This document shows, in pieces, positions 25,284-36,850 of a DNA stretch of 64,000 nucleotides. The notes below the pieces were generated by a model. It saw nothing but the letters and a program-made list of their open reading frames with translations, was not told the DNA's origin and searched no databases. Origin of the DNA: an uncultured Sulfitobacter sp. (GTDB lineage: Bacteria > Pseudomonadota > Alphaproteobacteria > Rhodobacterales > Rhodobacteraceae); contig CAJXSZ010000002.1 of assembly GCA_913060815.1 (NCBI GenBank), positions 62,001 to 126,000 on the forward strand, given 5' to 3'. The position numbers and the translations under genes are program-made. Every line of letters begins with the position of its first letter. Position 1 is the first letter of the stretch.

Positions 25284-25394
25284 GGGTGGCTCCAATATCC
25301 CTGCATGCAATCTGCGCCCCGCATGCGCCTACGTCAATCAGCCGATTGTATCCACACACTTTCCAAGGATGTCGCGAGGCGCTAGGAAACTCAC

Positions 25395-26456
25395 ATGACA
25401 AGCATGCGCACCCAATACGACACGATGATCGCCGACGGCACACTGCGCCCTGACCCCGCGCAGGCCGCCTTGATGCCCGAGTTTGACCGCATCCTCGACG
25501 CCCTGTCAGCGCCTGTGAAAAAAGGGTTTTTCCGCAAAGCACCAGAGCCCCCAAAGGGTCTGTATCTTTGGGGCGGGGTCGGGCGCGGGAAATCCATGCT
25601 CATGGATATGTTCGTGAATAACCTTGGCGACATCCCCGCACGGCGGGTGCATTTCCATGCGTTCATGCAGGAGATTCATGCTGCGATGCACGAGGCACGT
25701 AAAACGGGTGTTGAGGACGCGATTGCTCCTGTCGCAAAGGCGGTGAGCAGTTCGGTTCGGCTTTTGGCGTTCGACGAAATGCAGATCACCGATATCACCG
25801 ATGCAATGATCGTTGGCCGCTTGTTCGAGGCATTGTTTGCGGATGGTGTTGTTGTGATCACCACCTCCAATCGCATTCCCGGCGACCTCTACAAACACGG
25901 GCTGAACCGTGATCTGTTTTTGCCGTTCATCGAGTTGATCAAACAGCAGATGGTCGTGCACGAATTAGCCAGCCCTACAGATTACAGACAGGACCGTTTG
26001 GCGGGCAGCCCTGTCTATTTCACCCCTATCAATGCCGAGAGCCGCGCACAGATGGACGCTGTCTGGCGTGATCTGTCGGGCGGTGAGGCAGGGCCGTTGA
26101 CCCTACATGTCAAAGGGCGGGATGTGACCCTACCGCTTTTTCGCAATGGCGTGGGACGCACGAAATTTCATGCTATCTGTGGGCAACCGCTCGGACCTGC
26201 CGATTTCTTGGCGGTCGCAGAAGCTGTGAAAGTCCTCATGCTCGATGACATTCCCGCTCTTGGGCGCAGCAATTTCAACGAGGCAAAGCGTTTTGTCACG
26301 CTGATAGATGCACTTTATGAAGCGCGGGTTCAGCTTATATGCTCAGCCGCAGCATCGCCCGAGATGTTATACCTTGAGGGCGAGGGAACATTCGAATTCG
26401 AGCGTACCGCCTCGCGCTTGCGCGAAATGCAAAGCGAGAGTTGGGCGCAGGCCTAG
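25395..26456 (+). CDS. zapE: Cell division protein ZapE (AFG1-type ATPase)
   Basis: AAA-type ATPase that acts on the FtsZ ring in gammaproteobacteria and is related to mitochondrial AFG1 (established). The 353-residue protein has the Walker A motif GGVGRGKSMLMD near residue 58, Walker B LLAFDEMQITD near 125 and the VITTSNRIP sensor. Length is normal. It is monocistronic and converges on a small membrane protein gene. Confidence 0.93.
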   Translation: MTSMRTQYDTMIADGTLRPDPAQAALMPEFDRILDALSAPVKKGFFRKAPEPPKGLYLWGGVGRGKSMLMDMFVNNLGDIPARRVHFHAFMQEIHAAMHEARKTGVEDAIAPVAKAVSSSVRLLAFDEMQITDITDAMIVGRLFEALFADGVVVITTSNRIPGDLYKHGLNRDLFLPFIELIKQQMVVHELASPTDYRQDRLAGSPVYFTPINAESRAQMDAVWRDLSGGEAGPLTLHVKGRDVTLPLFRNGVGRTKFHAICGQPLGPADFLAVAEAVKVLMLDDIPALGRSNFNEAKRFVTLIDALYEARVQLICSAAASPEMLYLEGEGTFEFERTASRLREMQSESWAQA

Positions 26457-29473: not shown

Positions 29474-30370
29474 TCAACGCCGCAGTGCAAGACGGGCCGC
29501 AAGCCAGCTCACGATCATCATTGCAAAATCGACGGGCAACCACGCCCGCAGCTGTGCCGCATCCTCCATCCCGAAAGGCGTGTGAAACAGCGCCAGCCCA
29601 CTGAGGGTGTCGGGCAGAGATGTGAGCAACAGCGCACTGATATTATTGAAAAAATGTACGGCCAATGCGGGCCCGATCGATCCTGAGCGCGCAGTAAGGT
29701 CCGCCATTAGCAAACCAAACAACCCTGCCCAGACGGTAATCATAATCGCATTCTGGCCTGCCTCTACGGGTTGATAGTGGCCAAGAGCGAATAGAACAGA
29801 AGGCAAAACCATCCATATCCAGGGCGATGCAAATCGCGCAGCTAGTTGCTGTTGCAGGTAGCCGCGAAAGAAAATCTCCTCCGCGCTGACTTGCACAAAC
29901 ACAGCGATCAGCGACAGAGGCAGAACCAAGGCCCACAGACCAAAGGCCATGTTTGGCACAGACGGACCACCATAGCCGTAGGGCGGAAGGATCATCAGCA
30001 CCGCAGCGAGCACAAGCATCGCAGTGAAGACACGAAAGAATTGTGGCGCGGCAAGGATTGTAGGGCCGAATACGCTCAATGCTTCACGTTGGTGCAGCAG
30101 CCGCACGACGATAAAGACACTCAAGCTGATCAAACCAAAGCTGAACAGCAGCACGTACATCGCCAAGGGTGTGCTGCCTGCCATCAACTCATCTGTAAAC
30201 TGTGGTCGAAAGCGCGTTAGCTCCGAGATGGCTTGCTGATAGAAGAGCGAAAGCAGAACATAGACTGCGACCATTGCCACGATACCCAACAGCAAGCGCC
30301 ACAATTCGGGACGGGGTTCGGCCGCACGCGTGTGTAGCCCATGCGCTGAGTAGTCCGGCCAAAGGGACAT
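29474..30370 (-). CDS. CPBP family intramembrane metalloprotease
   Basis: A 298-residue membrane protein with about 8 hydrophobic segments. It holds the three CPBP (Rce1/CAAX-type, Abi) motifs: EEIFFRG, FALGHYQP and HFFNNISALL, with the Glu and His residues that bind metal. The ATG at 30370 overlaps the stop of the ABC-like gene by one base (TGATG), and AAAGGAG lies upstream inside that gene, so translation is coupled. It may process or partner with the upstream membrane protein; this is inference. Confidence 0.88.
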   Translation of the reverse strand: MSLWPDYSAHGLHTRAAEPRPELWRLLLGIVAMVAVYVLLSLFYQQAISELTRFRPQFTDELMAGSTPLAMYVLLFSFGLISLSVFIVVRLLHQREALSVFGPTILAAPQFFRVFTAMLVLAAVLMILPPYGYGGPSVPNMAFGLWALVLPLSLIAVFVQVSAEEIFFRGYLQQQLAARFASPWIWMVLPSVLFALGHYQPVEAGQNAIMITVWAGLFGLLMADLTARSGSIGPALAVHFFNNISALLLTSLPDTLSGLALFHTPFGMEDAAQLRAWLPVDFAMMIVSWLAARLALRR

Positions 30371-33300
30371 CAAGTGTTCTCCTTTGGATCATCATCGGTT
30401 GCCGGCTCGCGAGGAATTTCGAGCTGTGCATCGCGGATCACCTCCGCTGCGCCTGTCAGGTGGCCTGCTACTGTTTTGAGCAAGCTCATCAAGACCGCAT
30501 TATCGTTTTCGACCACAGAGCTGAACTGTTCCGCGCCAATCCGTAGAAATTTGCTGTCTTCAATCGCCTTGAGGTTCACCTGTCGCGGCTCGCGCAAGAT
30601 CACCGCAAGATCGCCGATGACGCGCCCCGGCTCTACTGTGGTAATATGCTGCTCCACACCCGTTTTATCAAAGAAAGTGATTTCAGCCTTACCATCAACG
30701 CACAGGTAAACAGCATCAGGTTGTTCATCGATATTGAATACAACGGTTCCAGCAGGGGCGTCATACCATTTCGCCGCAAAAGCAAGCAGCCGCTGCGCAC
30801 GTGGTTCCAATGCGCCAAAAAGCTCGTTGCGCTGGATCAGGGTCAGTTTGCGGCGTAAATCGTCCGATATATCGGCCGAGCCATCCGGATTGACCGTGCT
30901 GTCCACGCCGTCCAGCCGGCCGTGGTCAATTTCCACAAACATGTCATAGCTTTCATGGGCATCAAAACGGTCATCCAGAAATATCTGTGTTGTGTCGGGC
31001 ATCAGCTTATGCAGCCGCTCACGGGTGCGCTGCAGATCACTCCCGGAAAGCGCCTGATCAAACACAATCACATCAGGCCGCTTGATCGCCGCACGGGTAA
31101 ACGAAGCGCGTTCCTGAATCGAAAGTGGCAGGTTTGTCCCACCAATCGCCGTCGGGATATCGAATACGTTGGTGGCAACCTGTGCCCGCAAATTGTGTGT
31201 TCGCAACACGTCAGAGACGGCATCCAAAATCAAATCTGCCTGCACACCGGCCATGGCAGAGACGCGGCCATAAATCAGATTGTCCAGAACGCTGATCCGC
31301 GGAAGATAGTTTTGCGGACCGATCGGGACAAACAAATCCTTGGCCAATTCACGCATCTCGGCCCCACGTCTTTCACGAATACTAAGGATTTCGCTTTTGA
31401 ACGTTTCGGGAAAAGCAGGGCCGATCTGCTCTGCCGTGAAGGCGAAGGGCACGGTAAGCAGAAGCGCAAATTCCTCTTCGCTCAGCGCGCCATCCCCTTT
31501 ATTGCGCCGCCGCGTCGCGATATCGACCAGTTGCTCATACAGACCCTCTTCAATCCCGAGTGCGGTAAAAAGCGGATGGTTCGTTCCGTCCATGCCAAAG
31601 GTCTGGTGCAGCGTCTCGATCAGGGTTTGCGAGATTGCGATACCCTTCTCCGCCAAGCCGTTTTCTGCAATCATCGCCATGAACGCTTTTTCAGTCACCA
31701 GCCCTTGCTGGGTGATGTCGCGCAAGGGTGTCGCGAACAAAAGGTTACCACCCAGCGGAATAGCGGGATTAAACTTTTCGGGGTCAAACCGATGGACCGC
31801 ACCATCAAGCCTGCGCTCCTTAAGCACTTCGTAGACCGCAGGGCGCAGATCCACGATTTTCTGAGCCAGATCGGGGTTCTGATTGGGATCAAGCCGCGTG
31901 CCAAGCATGCCACGAATAATGCCTTCGTCAGTATTGAGGACGCGGCTCAGCTCGAACCACCAATCATTCACGTCCTGCATCGTATCCAGACCCGCAAGCT
32001 CGGGGTCAAGCCAGTCTGCGCGCATGCTATCGAGACTATTGCCCGACCTGCGCGCCTCAATCCCCGTCCGATCCCGCTTCTCGGGGTCCCACAGCACCGT
32101 CTTTGGCGAGGTGCGCAGTGACATCAAAAGGTTGTCGCCAATTGTGCCGTGAAAAAGATACGGCTGCGCTGGCACATAGCCGATGCGCGCCGCAATGACA
32201 GCCTGATGTAGTGTTGAGATATCATGGCCACCCATAGAAATGCTGCCCCGCGTCGGTAGCACCTCTCGTGTGAAAAGTTCGGCCAAGGCGCGGCGCTCGG
32301 CCATGGTCGAGGTTTTGATTGCGATCTGCGCACCTTTTGGGATGCTGAGGTTCAGGTCTTCAATAACCATCCCACCGTCAGAATTTCGGACAAAAACGTT
32401 GTTCAGGACAATTTCACCTGAAAGATGAGGTATCTCGTTGGGCGTCCCGTCGAACAACGTCTCGTCAATCACGCCTTTCGGTTCAAATCTCTCTGTAACC
32501 ACGTCCCAACGCAGAGCCATATCCTGCGTCTGGTTGTAGTAGGCCAAGAGCTCTTTCCATGGGCTGCTGAGATCTTTGTAGGCCGCAAGGGCGGCGACAA
32601 GCGCACCCACGGTGATGTCGCCCTGAATAACCAGAATGCCACCCACGAGGTAGAAGAAGAACGGCGTGAGTTGAGTAATGAAGTTATTGAGAAACTTCAT
32701 AAAGAACTTCTTTTTGTAGATCTTGAAGCGGATATCGAACAGCCGCCCCAAGCGGACGGTGAACCCCGCCAGCCTGAAACGCCAGCCGCCGTTGGTGCGC
32801 AGATCCACGATCCCCGCTGCCGTTTCGCCAATCTCCGAGGACAGCAGGCGCACCTCTTTAATGCGGTCTTTGTTCAGAAGATTGATCTGCCGCTGGATCA
32901 TCGGAATGACGTAGGCCTGTAGCGGGATGAGCGCGATGCCAGCCAGACCGAACCAGAAGGACTGTAGAAAGAGAAACACCACGATGATGAGCATCTGGCC
33001 CGCCTGAAACACAGGCTGTGCGATGAAATCACCCATCAGGCCGCCCATCGGCTCCGCTTCGGAGGTGACCATACTCACCAACTCGCCCTGTGATGTGTTT
33101 TGAAAGTACAGCTTGGGGAAACGCATCATCCGCGAGATCAAGCCATAGCGGAACCTGCGCAAAAGACGCTCTGCTACGACCCCTTTCATCGTGTTGAGGC
33201 GCATCTTCAGAAGCCCATGCGCAAGGACTGCCGCCAGATAGCCAAAGCACAGCGCGCTCAGGAACTGGATTTGGCTAAACTGGTAGCCAAAGGCCATGAC

Positions 33301-33456
33301 CATCGGGTCCTCTGCGCCAATCGCGTCGTTGATGATCCGTTTGGGCAACTCAAGCGTGGCGTAGAGAAACGGAAACGTCAGTAGCGTCACCAGCAAGAGA
33401 ACCAGTTGATCCCGCTTGGAGTGTTTCCAGATAAAGGCCGAGAGGCTACGGTCCAT
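30370..33456 (-). CDS. ABC-like half-transporter with degenerate ATPase domain, large insertion and cNMP-binding domain
   Basis: A 1028-residue protein. Residues 1-325 are a six-helix ABC exporter membrane domain. Residues 347-845 follow the ABC ATPase layout, but key motifs are lost. The P-loop region ([19 protein letters not shown], 371-389) has no Gly-x-Gly-Lys. The Q-loop reads VPAQPYLF near 428 (Gln to Ala). The signature is LSIQE near 778 instead of LSGGQ. Walker B ends VIVFDQ (795-801, Glu to Gln), and the H-switch position (LDDRFD, 827-832) is Asp. About 270 residues (445-715) are inserted before a second [13 protein letters not shown] segment. Residues 870-1000 resemble a cyclic-nucleotide-binding domain ([22 protein letters not shown]). 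It may be a regulated non-ATPase membrane protein. Confidence 0.85.
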
Positions 33457-35986: not shown

Positions 35987-36076
35987 CATGTCATCTAAAG
36001 GCTAACGCATCTGCGTTCAGTCAATTGCTTCGATTGTGCGCCATAAAAAGATGCCGTGAGCAGCAAGGCAGACAAA

Positions 36077-36850
36077 ATGGCTAAACTTGGTGAACACCTG
36101 TTAGATAAAGCGGTCTTCAGTCGCACGCTCTCGAAATGGGCGCGCAATGCGCGTTTGGCCCGTTCTGCAAATCTGATATCTCTGCGTCGTCAACGGATGC
36201 GTGCGAGGCAGCTCAAAGCGCATTTGGACCAACTTATTCATGTCGCTGACGAACGGCTTGCCTTGCCCCTCGAAGGGTCTACCAGCTTTCCAAAACCCCA
36301 TAATGCGGATTGGTCTTGGCGCCCTGAGCTATGGCGCGGTCCATTGCCCACGCCAGGTATGTCGGCTGCGCAAACGCGCGCCATGCTTGGCAATGAAGTT
36401 ACGCTCTTCCATGACTGCGAGTTCTCGGAGCTGACGCTTCGACAGCTTCGCAATCTTCGTGAACAAGATCTTGCGCCTTACGGTCTGCGCATGGATGTTT
36501 TCCGCTTTGACGGGTCGTTCCTGTCTTTGGTCGTTGATCTGCCCGACAATGGGATCGACGGACTAAAGCGAACGCATTTGATCAGAATGGACGTGATTGT
36601 CGAACTGGAAAAGCCGATCGAGATTTTTGCGCGTCTCAACATCAAGAACGGGCCTAACACGGAGCAAATCGTACGTGAGCTTGACTTGAGCCAAGAGCAA
36701 ACTGTTGTCGAGTTCGACCTCGCCTACTCCAACCTGAACGAACGGCGGGTAGAAGGCGCATGGGTTGATCTTATTTTTGAAGGGCCGGAGATGAATCAGG
36801 TCACCCTTCATGATCTCACCTTTTCACGCCGGCCTCGCGCTCAAATCTAA
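36077..36850 (+). CDS. DUF6478 family protein
   Basis: A 257-residue cytoplasmic protein of a family seen mainly in Rhodobacterales; function unknown. The N-terminus is basic and helical (LLDKAVFSRTLSKWARNAR, then SLRRQRMRARQLKAHLDQLIHVADERLALP). The conserved core follows (DWSWRPELWRGPLP), and the C-terminal half is rich in beta strands. AAGG lies before the ATG at 36077; an in-frame GTG at 36056 is the alternative. The next gene follows 39 bases later, so they are likely one operon. Confidence 0.78.
   Translation: MAKLGEHLLDKAVFSRTLSKWARNARLARSANLISLRRQRMRARQLKAHLDQLIHVADERLALPLEGSTSFPKPHNADWSWRPELWRGPLPTPGMSAAQTRAMLGNEVTLFHDCEFSELTLRQLRNLREQDLAPYGLRMDVFRFDGSFLSLVVDLPDNGIDGLKRTHLIRMDVIVELEKPIEIFARLNIKNGPNTEQIVRELDLSQEQTVVEFDLAYSNLNERRVEGAWVDLIFEGPEMNQVTLHDLTFSRRPRAQI

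Follow-up and report, generated by a model that had tools for sequence, protein, structure and literature searches.

The window analysed in this work is a 64,000-nucleotide stretch of the genome of an uncultured Sulfitobacter sp. (contig CAJXSZ010000002.1, positions 62,001 to 126,000), and the gene under study, located at 30370-33456(-), is an open reading frame (ORF) of 1028 amino acids (aa) with an ATG start and no internal stop. Our analyses indicate that its product is an ATPase-dead member of a family derived from ABCB-type ATP-binding cassette (ABC) proteins and that, of the residues which bind or hydrolyse ATP, only the Walker B Asp is left. We tentatively favour, at somewhat short of an even chance, the reading that this protein serves as an ATP-independent, allosterically gated membrane protein and not as a pump. 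The coordinates of its predicted domains and motifs are summarized in Table 1.

Domain architecture and predicted fold

Pfam searches identified an ABC_membrane domain at residues 53–290 (66 bits against a cut-off of 28, E 5.6e-18) and a cNMP_binding domain at residues 901–985 (52.3 bits against 27.5, E 5.7e-14), and the match to ABC_tran at residues 367–459 lay below the cut-off (17.6 against 25 bits). Because the best phmmer alignment, which is to ComA, breaks into residues 70–448 and a weak second stretch at 773–848, the nucleotide-binding domain (NBD) is taken to be split by an insertion of about 287 residues (449–735). An AlphaFold2 model of the full protein, based on a 101-row alignment, has a mean predicted local distance difference test score (pLDDT) of 86.4 and a predicted template modelling score of 0.76, and the first 50 rows of its Foldseek search are all ABC exporters (e.g. 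P-glycoprotein, PCAT1, and TmrAB). The predicted layout is that of an ABCB-type half-transporter consisting of a transmembrane domain (TMD), a split NBD and a C-terminal cyclic-nucleotide-binding (CNB) domain. An earlier interpretation of the DNA, the sequence-only reading, had proposed the same exporter layout, and the insertion of 270 residues that it described is present with a greater length, 287 aa.

Loss of the ATP-site motifs

The motif comparison covered 129 full-length family members, viz. 30 proteins of type A (the window protein and 29 orthologues), 9 other members from the Roseobacter group, and 90 distant members; the names and positions of the motifs (Walker A, Q-loop, signature, Walker B, and switch) are those which we take to apply from general knowledge of ABC proteins. 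In the alignment of type A the Walker A Lys, the Q-loop Gln and the switch His are each found in 0/30 proteins and the catalytic Glu in 1/30. In the window protein the Q-loop Gln is replaced by Ala, the Walker B Glu by Gln and the switch His by Asp, and the signature position reads LPLSI (776–780) in the family register, LSGGQ not being kept. The Walker B Asp is present (VIVFD), as it is in 11 of the 30 type A proteins, the window protein included. Because the patterns GxxxxGK[ST] and LSGG were both absent from the entire window protein in an alignment-free search, the loss of these motifs does not depend on the alignment. Most of what the sequence-only reading had claimed for this site is upheld: Lys, Gln, Glu, His and signature are all lost, and neither the alignment nor the pattern search places a Lys or P-loop elsewhere in the fold, which it had named as a possible refutation. 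Its statement that no position was intact fails for the Walker B Asp, and the signature that it read as LSIQE lies two residues away in the family register.

The Walker A Lys is likewise absent from the other Roseobacter-group paralogues (0/9). The distant members have this Lys in 61/90 cases (Arg in 20), the catalytic Glu in 56/90 and the switch His in 24/90, but Ser/Thr directly after the Lys position and the Walker B Asp are each present in only 13/90. The pattern GxxxxGK[ST] is found in 0/30 type A, 0/9 other Roseobacter-group and 4/90 distant proteins, and Lys, Ser/Thr, Asp, and Glu occur all together in a single one of the 129 members (L122). Judged by these counts, the distant members mostly keep a P-loop and rarely the Mg-binding residues, the whole family is atypical, and the Roseobacter-group members represent its emptied end.

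A conserved polar signature in the transmembrane domain

Mean pairwise identity among the 90 distant members is 55% for the TMD, 41% and 43% for the two NBD parts, and 44% for the insertion, and the TMD is also the most conserved part within type A (82% mean identity of the 29 orthologues to the window protein). In four canonical exporters of the same genome, identity is 14–26% in the TMD and 29–51% in the NBD. The greater conservation of the TMD is thus the reverse of the pattern in canonical exporters.

A TMD signature was defined as the 43 positions, up to residue 330, that are invariant in 25 NBD-bearing members, and 17 of these are Lys, Arg, Glu, Asn, or Gln. The signature was compared with two groups of relatives that have no NBD. 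Copper-type NBD-less proteins (n = 8) keep 36–40 of the 43 positions and 14–17 of the 17 polar or charged ones, and the second NBD-less group (4 rows) keeps 23–27 and 11–13, respectively; the five canonical exporters match 5–11 and 0–3, a score that is lowered by construction, the 43 positions having been picked for conservation within the family. When near-invariant positions are added (80 in total), the corresponding values are 59–64, 38–39, and 11–19, which give the same picture in weaker form. A list of 30 positions chosen after the NBD-less alignment had been seen favours the NBD-less rows, and it was dropped in favour of the 43. The TMD signature, which is specific to the family and largely polar, thus occurs together with a P-loop-bearing NBD, with a dead NBD and, for a large part of its positions, in proteins that have no NBD.

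The copper-type clade consists of exporter-type TMD proteins of about 380–465 aa and includes a relative in the window's own genome (L038:5953-7254(-), G000:C7) as well as L139, L140, L141, L145, L147, L148, and L149. Cupredoxin-type or multicopper-oxidase genes are present in 6 of these 8 loci (by Pfam for L038, L148, and L149, by cluster for the others), and 65 plasmid records match the own-genome relative at 60–80% identity. In alignment this relative is shortened at both coupling-helix-like stretches, which the window protein keeps, and R109, F113, F255, and Q262 are mostly not kept in its group. The second NBD-less group comprises L142:6616-7644(+), L143, L144, and L146, and in L142 the gene overlaps the end of an oligopeptide-type double ABC ATPase gene. 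A tree of 71 TMD rows, constructed by a quick method, supports the Roseobacter-group clade (100), the copper-type clade (100), and the second NBD-less group (60). Its outgroup is one canonical exporter on a very long branch, and L152 and L153 (Rhizobium-type) and three canonical rows, which gave no TMD profile match, are left out; we trust the Roseobacter-group and copper-type clades, but neither the root nor the order of the deep branches.

The insertion and the distribution of the family

The insertion contains a tandem repeat, made up of units 2 and 3. Profile–profile comparison of these two units by hhalign gave a probability of 97.4 (E 9e-12) and a score of 71, with scores of at most 16.9 in 20 column-shuffled controls, and unit 1, which is the Q-loop stretch, is weakly similar to both (probability 58 to unit 2 and 22 to unit 3). 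We suggest that the insertion may have arisen by copying of the Q-loop segment. Modelled alone, it is helical with a pLDDT of 89.3; a Foldseek search with this model gave no match to a solved fold (best E 0.71), and its profile matched none of the PDB sequences up to E 1.

The insertion and the TMD are found family-wide and are not specific for the window gene. The insertion profile (A4, 58 rows) matches 131 of 385 genomes of Alphaproteobacteria; it includes the window sequence, so that the E of 1.5e-71 in the own genome is by construction. A full-length family profile matches 32 of 398 phylum-wide genomes at E 1e-60, NBD-less members included. Relatives are present in Sinorhizobium meliloti 2011 (pSymB) and Rhizobium johnstonii 3841 (pRL11), and loci labelled as beta- or gammaproteobacterial were seen in the form of metagenome-assembled genomes. 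Our search of the open-access literature found no paper recognisable as dealing with the present family.

The CNB domain and its possible ligands

The phosphate-binding cassette of cAMP and cGMP receptors is marked by a Glu and an Arg. In type A the Arg is kept in 30/30 proteins and the Glu is replaced by Asp in 30/30. Asp is also present in the paralogues of type B (3/3), and Glu is found in those of types C–E (6/6), in the separate CNB genes of distant members (24/26, with Arg in 26/26), and, together with Arg, in all five CNB domains fused to distant members. Among the adenylate cyclase classes searched, viz. class III (PF00211) and class I (PF01295) only, neither gave a match in the window's own genome; the PF00211 match is missing in 13 of 48 type A genomes, this one included, and three of the 13 are ≤90% complete. 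Sensing of cAMP by the window protein was set aside on account of the missing cyclase matches and the uniform change of Glu to Asp, and cAMP or cGMP sensing by type A in general seems doubtful. Of the cyclic-nucleotide-binding tail put forward by the sequence-only reading, the CNB-type domain is confirmed and its role as a cAMP/cGMP sensor is weakened by the same two results.

Class III cyclase genes were identified within 2 kb of 10 of the 35 loci of types C–E, paralogues whose NBD is dead (L052, L054, L055, L057, L169, L173, L175, L185, L189, and L190), where 0.26 are expected from each genome's own cyclase count (P about 3e-13); four of the ten are profile seeds and the remaining six give P about 4e-7, both values being overstated, since the test followed the noticing of the pattern and some of the genomes are close kin (e.g. 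G022 and G036). The control loci have no cyclase gene within 2 kb (type A 0/26, type B 0/8), and in 11 of 91 distant loci one is found at varied distances. Because cyclase genes lie close to some type C–E loci, a link to cyclic nucleotides is likely for part of the family. For type A, cyclic di-GMP (c-di-GMP) may be offered as a candidate ligand, because three GGDEF genes are present in each of the 9/9 genomes tested and Xanthomonas Clp has Asp at the cassette Glu position, a point on which we found no paper.

Genes surrounding the distant relatives

Among the 79 distant loci that exceed 9 kb in length, a GT28-type cluster is present in 53, a GT4 cluster in 52 and either of them in 62, along with a dipeptide-type ABC ATPase in 43, a histidine phosphatase in 26, and a separate CNB gene in 26; these counts are rough, as they have no background rate and some genes were missed by ORF picking. 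Because most distant relatives have glycosyltransferase genes in their vicinity, the ancestral role of the family was probably the translocation of a glycan or glycolipid. A glycosyltransferase cluster is also present in two of the three type B loci of this set (L056 and L058) and in none of its five type C–E loci. None of the gene types counted here is among the annotated neighbours of the window gene. In Rhizobium (3841 pRL11 and WSM1689) the ABC, CNB, three glycosyltransferase, dipeptide-type transporter, and adenylate/guanylate cyclase genes are co-oriented, the cyclase gene lying 10 kb upstream. The recurrent gene cluster encodes GT28 and GT4 glycosyltransferases, a histidine phosphatase, a weakly DUF2334-like protein and a dipeptide-type ABC importer, and it was seen beside the family gene in L040–L042, L044–L046, L048, L056, L058, L059, and others. 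A tie of the family gene to papers on capsular polysaccharide or O-antigen, which were available as excerpts (PMC5539429, PMC11103875), could not be made, and they are not used here.

Proposed function

Under the reading that we tentatively favour, the TMD would itself be active without ATP hydrolysis, either by translocating or gating an anionic substrate linked to a lipid or glycan, or by forming an ion path. The dead NBD, the helical insertion and the CNB tail would together make up one cytoplasmic allosteric module, which may open or close the TMD through the two coupling stretches retained in the window protein. The transporter-derived function envisaged in the sequence-only reading is partly supported in this respect: the ATP site is unusable, the frame is under selection, and transporter ancestry and a CNB-type tail are upheld, which points to a protein that is gated or regulatory and does not pump, whereas the channel, scaffold, or signalling roles named in that reading are no more than candidates.

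A number of observations weigh against this reading. Transport, gating, and a ligand are all putative, and a channel is indistinguishable from a flippase on the present evidence. The contrast with canonical exporters in the TMD is partly built into the choice of the 43 positions, of which the second NBD-less group retains only about half. The annotated neighbours of the window gene include no glycosyltransferase genes, and the two cyclase classes searched gave no match in its genome. A catalytic partner could act from elsewhere in the genome. Lastly, the type A gene is dispensable, because 10 of the 57 genomes from the same genus have no orthologue.

A bolder reading, which is possible but doubtful, extends ATP independence to the whole exporter-fold branch. 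Here the charged network of the TMD would be an autonomous translocator or channel, with the NBD altered at first, emptied later in the clade of the window protein, and absent in two groups, one of them mostly in copper islands; the emptied NBD, the helical insertion with its unmatched fold, and the Asp-bearing CNB domain of the window clade would then gate the TMD through another ligand, for which c-di-GMP is a candidate.

ABC transporters are defined by their use of ATP, and this widely conserved bacterial family spans altered, dead, and absent ATPases with one TMD signature. It is therefore a natural experiment that bears on the capabilities of an isolated exporter TMD and on how NBDs may become allosteric modules. 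Its insertion is a confidently modelled domain with no match in the PDB, and the relatives in Sinorhizobium meliloti and Rhizobium place the family in model organisms in which genes are easily deleted.

Gene neighbourhood and alternative explanations

Synteny was examined in 26 type A loci with flanks, drawn from 48 type A genomes (own genome included). Homologues of folC, accD, CPBP, ilvD, DUF6478, S41, and two small ORFs are present in the same order in 26/26 of these loci, and M23 and gpmI in 19 and 15, a shortfall that is probably due to short flanks. The DUF6478 protein of this block is encoded at 36056-36850(+) in the window.

An unlikely explanation is that the protein is a scaffold or pseudoenzyme whose TMD anchors the dead NBD, the insertion and the CNB domain so that they hold or regulate an envelope partner, e.g. 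the adjoining CPBP protease. The CPBP homologue lies directly downstream in all 26 loci, the junction of the two genes in the window is TGATG, and the M23 and S41 peptidase genes are close by. However, CPBP (together with accD) is retained in all 10 same-genus genomes that have no type A gene, on which ground an obligate ABC–CPBP coupling was rejected, and the most conserved region is the TMD and not the cytoplasmic part.

It is decidedly unlikely that the protein pairs, as a degenerate half, with a catalytic half encoded elsewhere to form a heterodimeric exporter, even though a single degenerate site is a familiar feature of some exporters (excerpts of PMC7756269) and further ABC exporter genes are present in the genome. 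A search for Walker A plus LSGG[QEM] motifs found an ABC-ATPase-like ORF in 0/26 type A loci (flanks of about 7 kb); the sole pattern match in the window, 25386-26453(+), stands at the zapE position of Ruegeria conchae, and the TMD signature of the family is missing in the five canonical exporters tested.

It is very improbable that the protein is an active ATPase whose catalytic residues are displaced and were misaligned. The Arg in the Walker A Lys column of all 30 type A proteins could touch phosphate and the window protein retains the Walker B Asp, but no glycine-rich GxxxxGK[ST] occurs anywhere, the NBD is modelled with high confidence, and the same column in the distant members mostly holds Lys or Arg, with the glycines mostly kept.

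That the gene is on its way to being lost is hardly credible and already contradicted: a type A orthologue is missing in those 10 of 57 same-genus genomes and, of the 47 that have one, 45 are full length, one (G056) is in two overlapping pieces, and one (G005) is seen only in part, but the ratio of nonsynonymous to synonymous substitution (omega) is about 0–0.10 in all six tabulated domains, the ORF is open over 1000 aa in all 30 listed type A loci and the gene block is conserved in 26/26. The omega values are from the six closest orthologue pairs, and pairs of the window gene with its four nearest relatives, in which synonymous divergence is high or saturated, were not used. The type A gene is under purifying selection and is not decaying, as had been expected from the intact reading frame.

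Table 1. Positions in the window of the gene, its predicted domains and motifs, and the adjoining protease gene.
Feature	Position	Strand	Basis
ABC-type membrane protein without ATPase motifs, 1028 aa	30370..33456	-	ORF, Pfam, model; 29 orthologues
TMD, residues 1-330	32467..33456	-	Pfam, model, alignments
First cytoplasmic coupling-helix-like stretch, residues 112-127	33076..33123	-	Alignment; coupling-helix role suggested by ABC exporter anatomy
Second cytoplasmic coupling-helix-like stretch, residues 222-232	32761..32793	-	Alignment; putative role
NBD N-terminal part, residues 341-448	32113..32436	-	Pfam, phmmer, model
Walker A position without P-loop, residues 381-392	32281..32316	-	Family alignment, pattern search
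Q-loop stretch (Gln to Ala), weakly repeat-like unit 1, residues 424-447	32116..32187	-	Profile comparison, alignment
Helical insertion, residues 449-735	31252..32112	-	Alignments, models
Repeat unit 2 in insertion, residues 552-577	31726..31803	-	hhalign; placed by alignment
Repeat unit 3 in insertion, residues 706-731	31264..31341	-	hhalign; placed by alignment
NBD C-terminal part, residues 736-850: signature position LPLSI, Walker B VIVFDQ, switch Asp	30907..31251	-	phmmer, alignment
CNB domain, residues 886-1000	30457..30801	-	Pfam, model
Phosphate-binding cassette (Glu to Asp, Arg kept), residues 944-964	30565..30627	-	Alignment
CPBP/Rce1-like intramembrane protease gene downstream, overlapping/abutting the ABC gene end	29474..30373	-	EEIFFR, FALGH, HFFNN present

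Comparison with known systems

The window protein shares the fold and order of TMD and NBD with the ABCB-type (type IV) exporters PCAT1, ComA, MsbA, and TmrAB, and it differs from them in having no usable ATP motifs, a 287-aa insertion between Q-loop and signature, a TMD more conserved than its NBD, and an added CNB domain. CFTR and SUR (ABCC7/8/9) are likewise cases in which an ABC architecture has been turned into a channel or channel regulator; these proteins bind ATP, belong to a different subfamily, and are eukaryotic. An association of a CNB domain with an ABC exporter is also seen in the NHLP bacteriocin-type transport proteins (TIGR03896 and TIGR03796), for which the window protein scores far under the curated cut-offs (27.8 against 161 and 112.7 against 853, respectively). 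The window protein resembles the one-degenerate-site exporters (viz. TM287/288, TmrAB, and MsRv1273c/72c) in that an NBD has lost catalytic residues, but its entire P-loop is gone and a catalytic partner gene was not found nearby; in the exporters covered by the review excerpts the second site is active, and several degenerate sites still bind ATP (PMC7756269). Lastly, fusions of MFS transporters with CNB domains, as described in excerpts of one study (PMC10710835), have recruited the CNB domain to regulate a membrane transporter, an arrangement shared with the window protein, although their transporter belongs to the MFS and the window protein is of the ABC type with a dead NBD.

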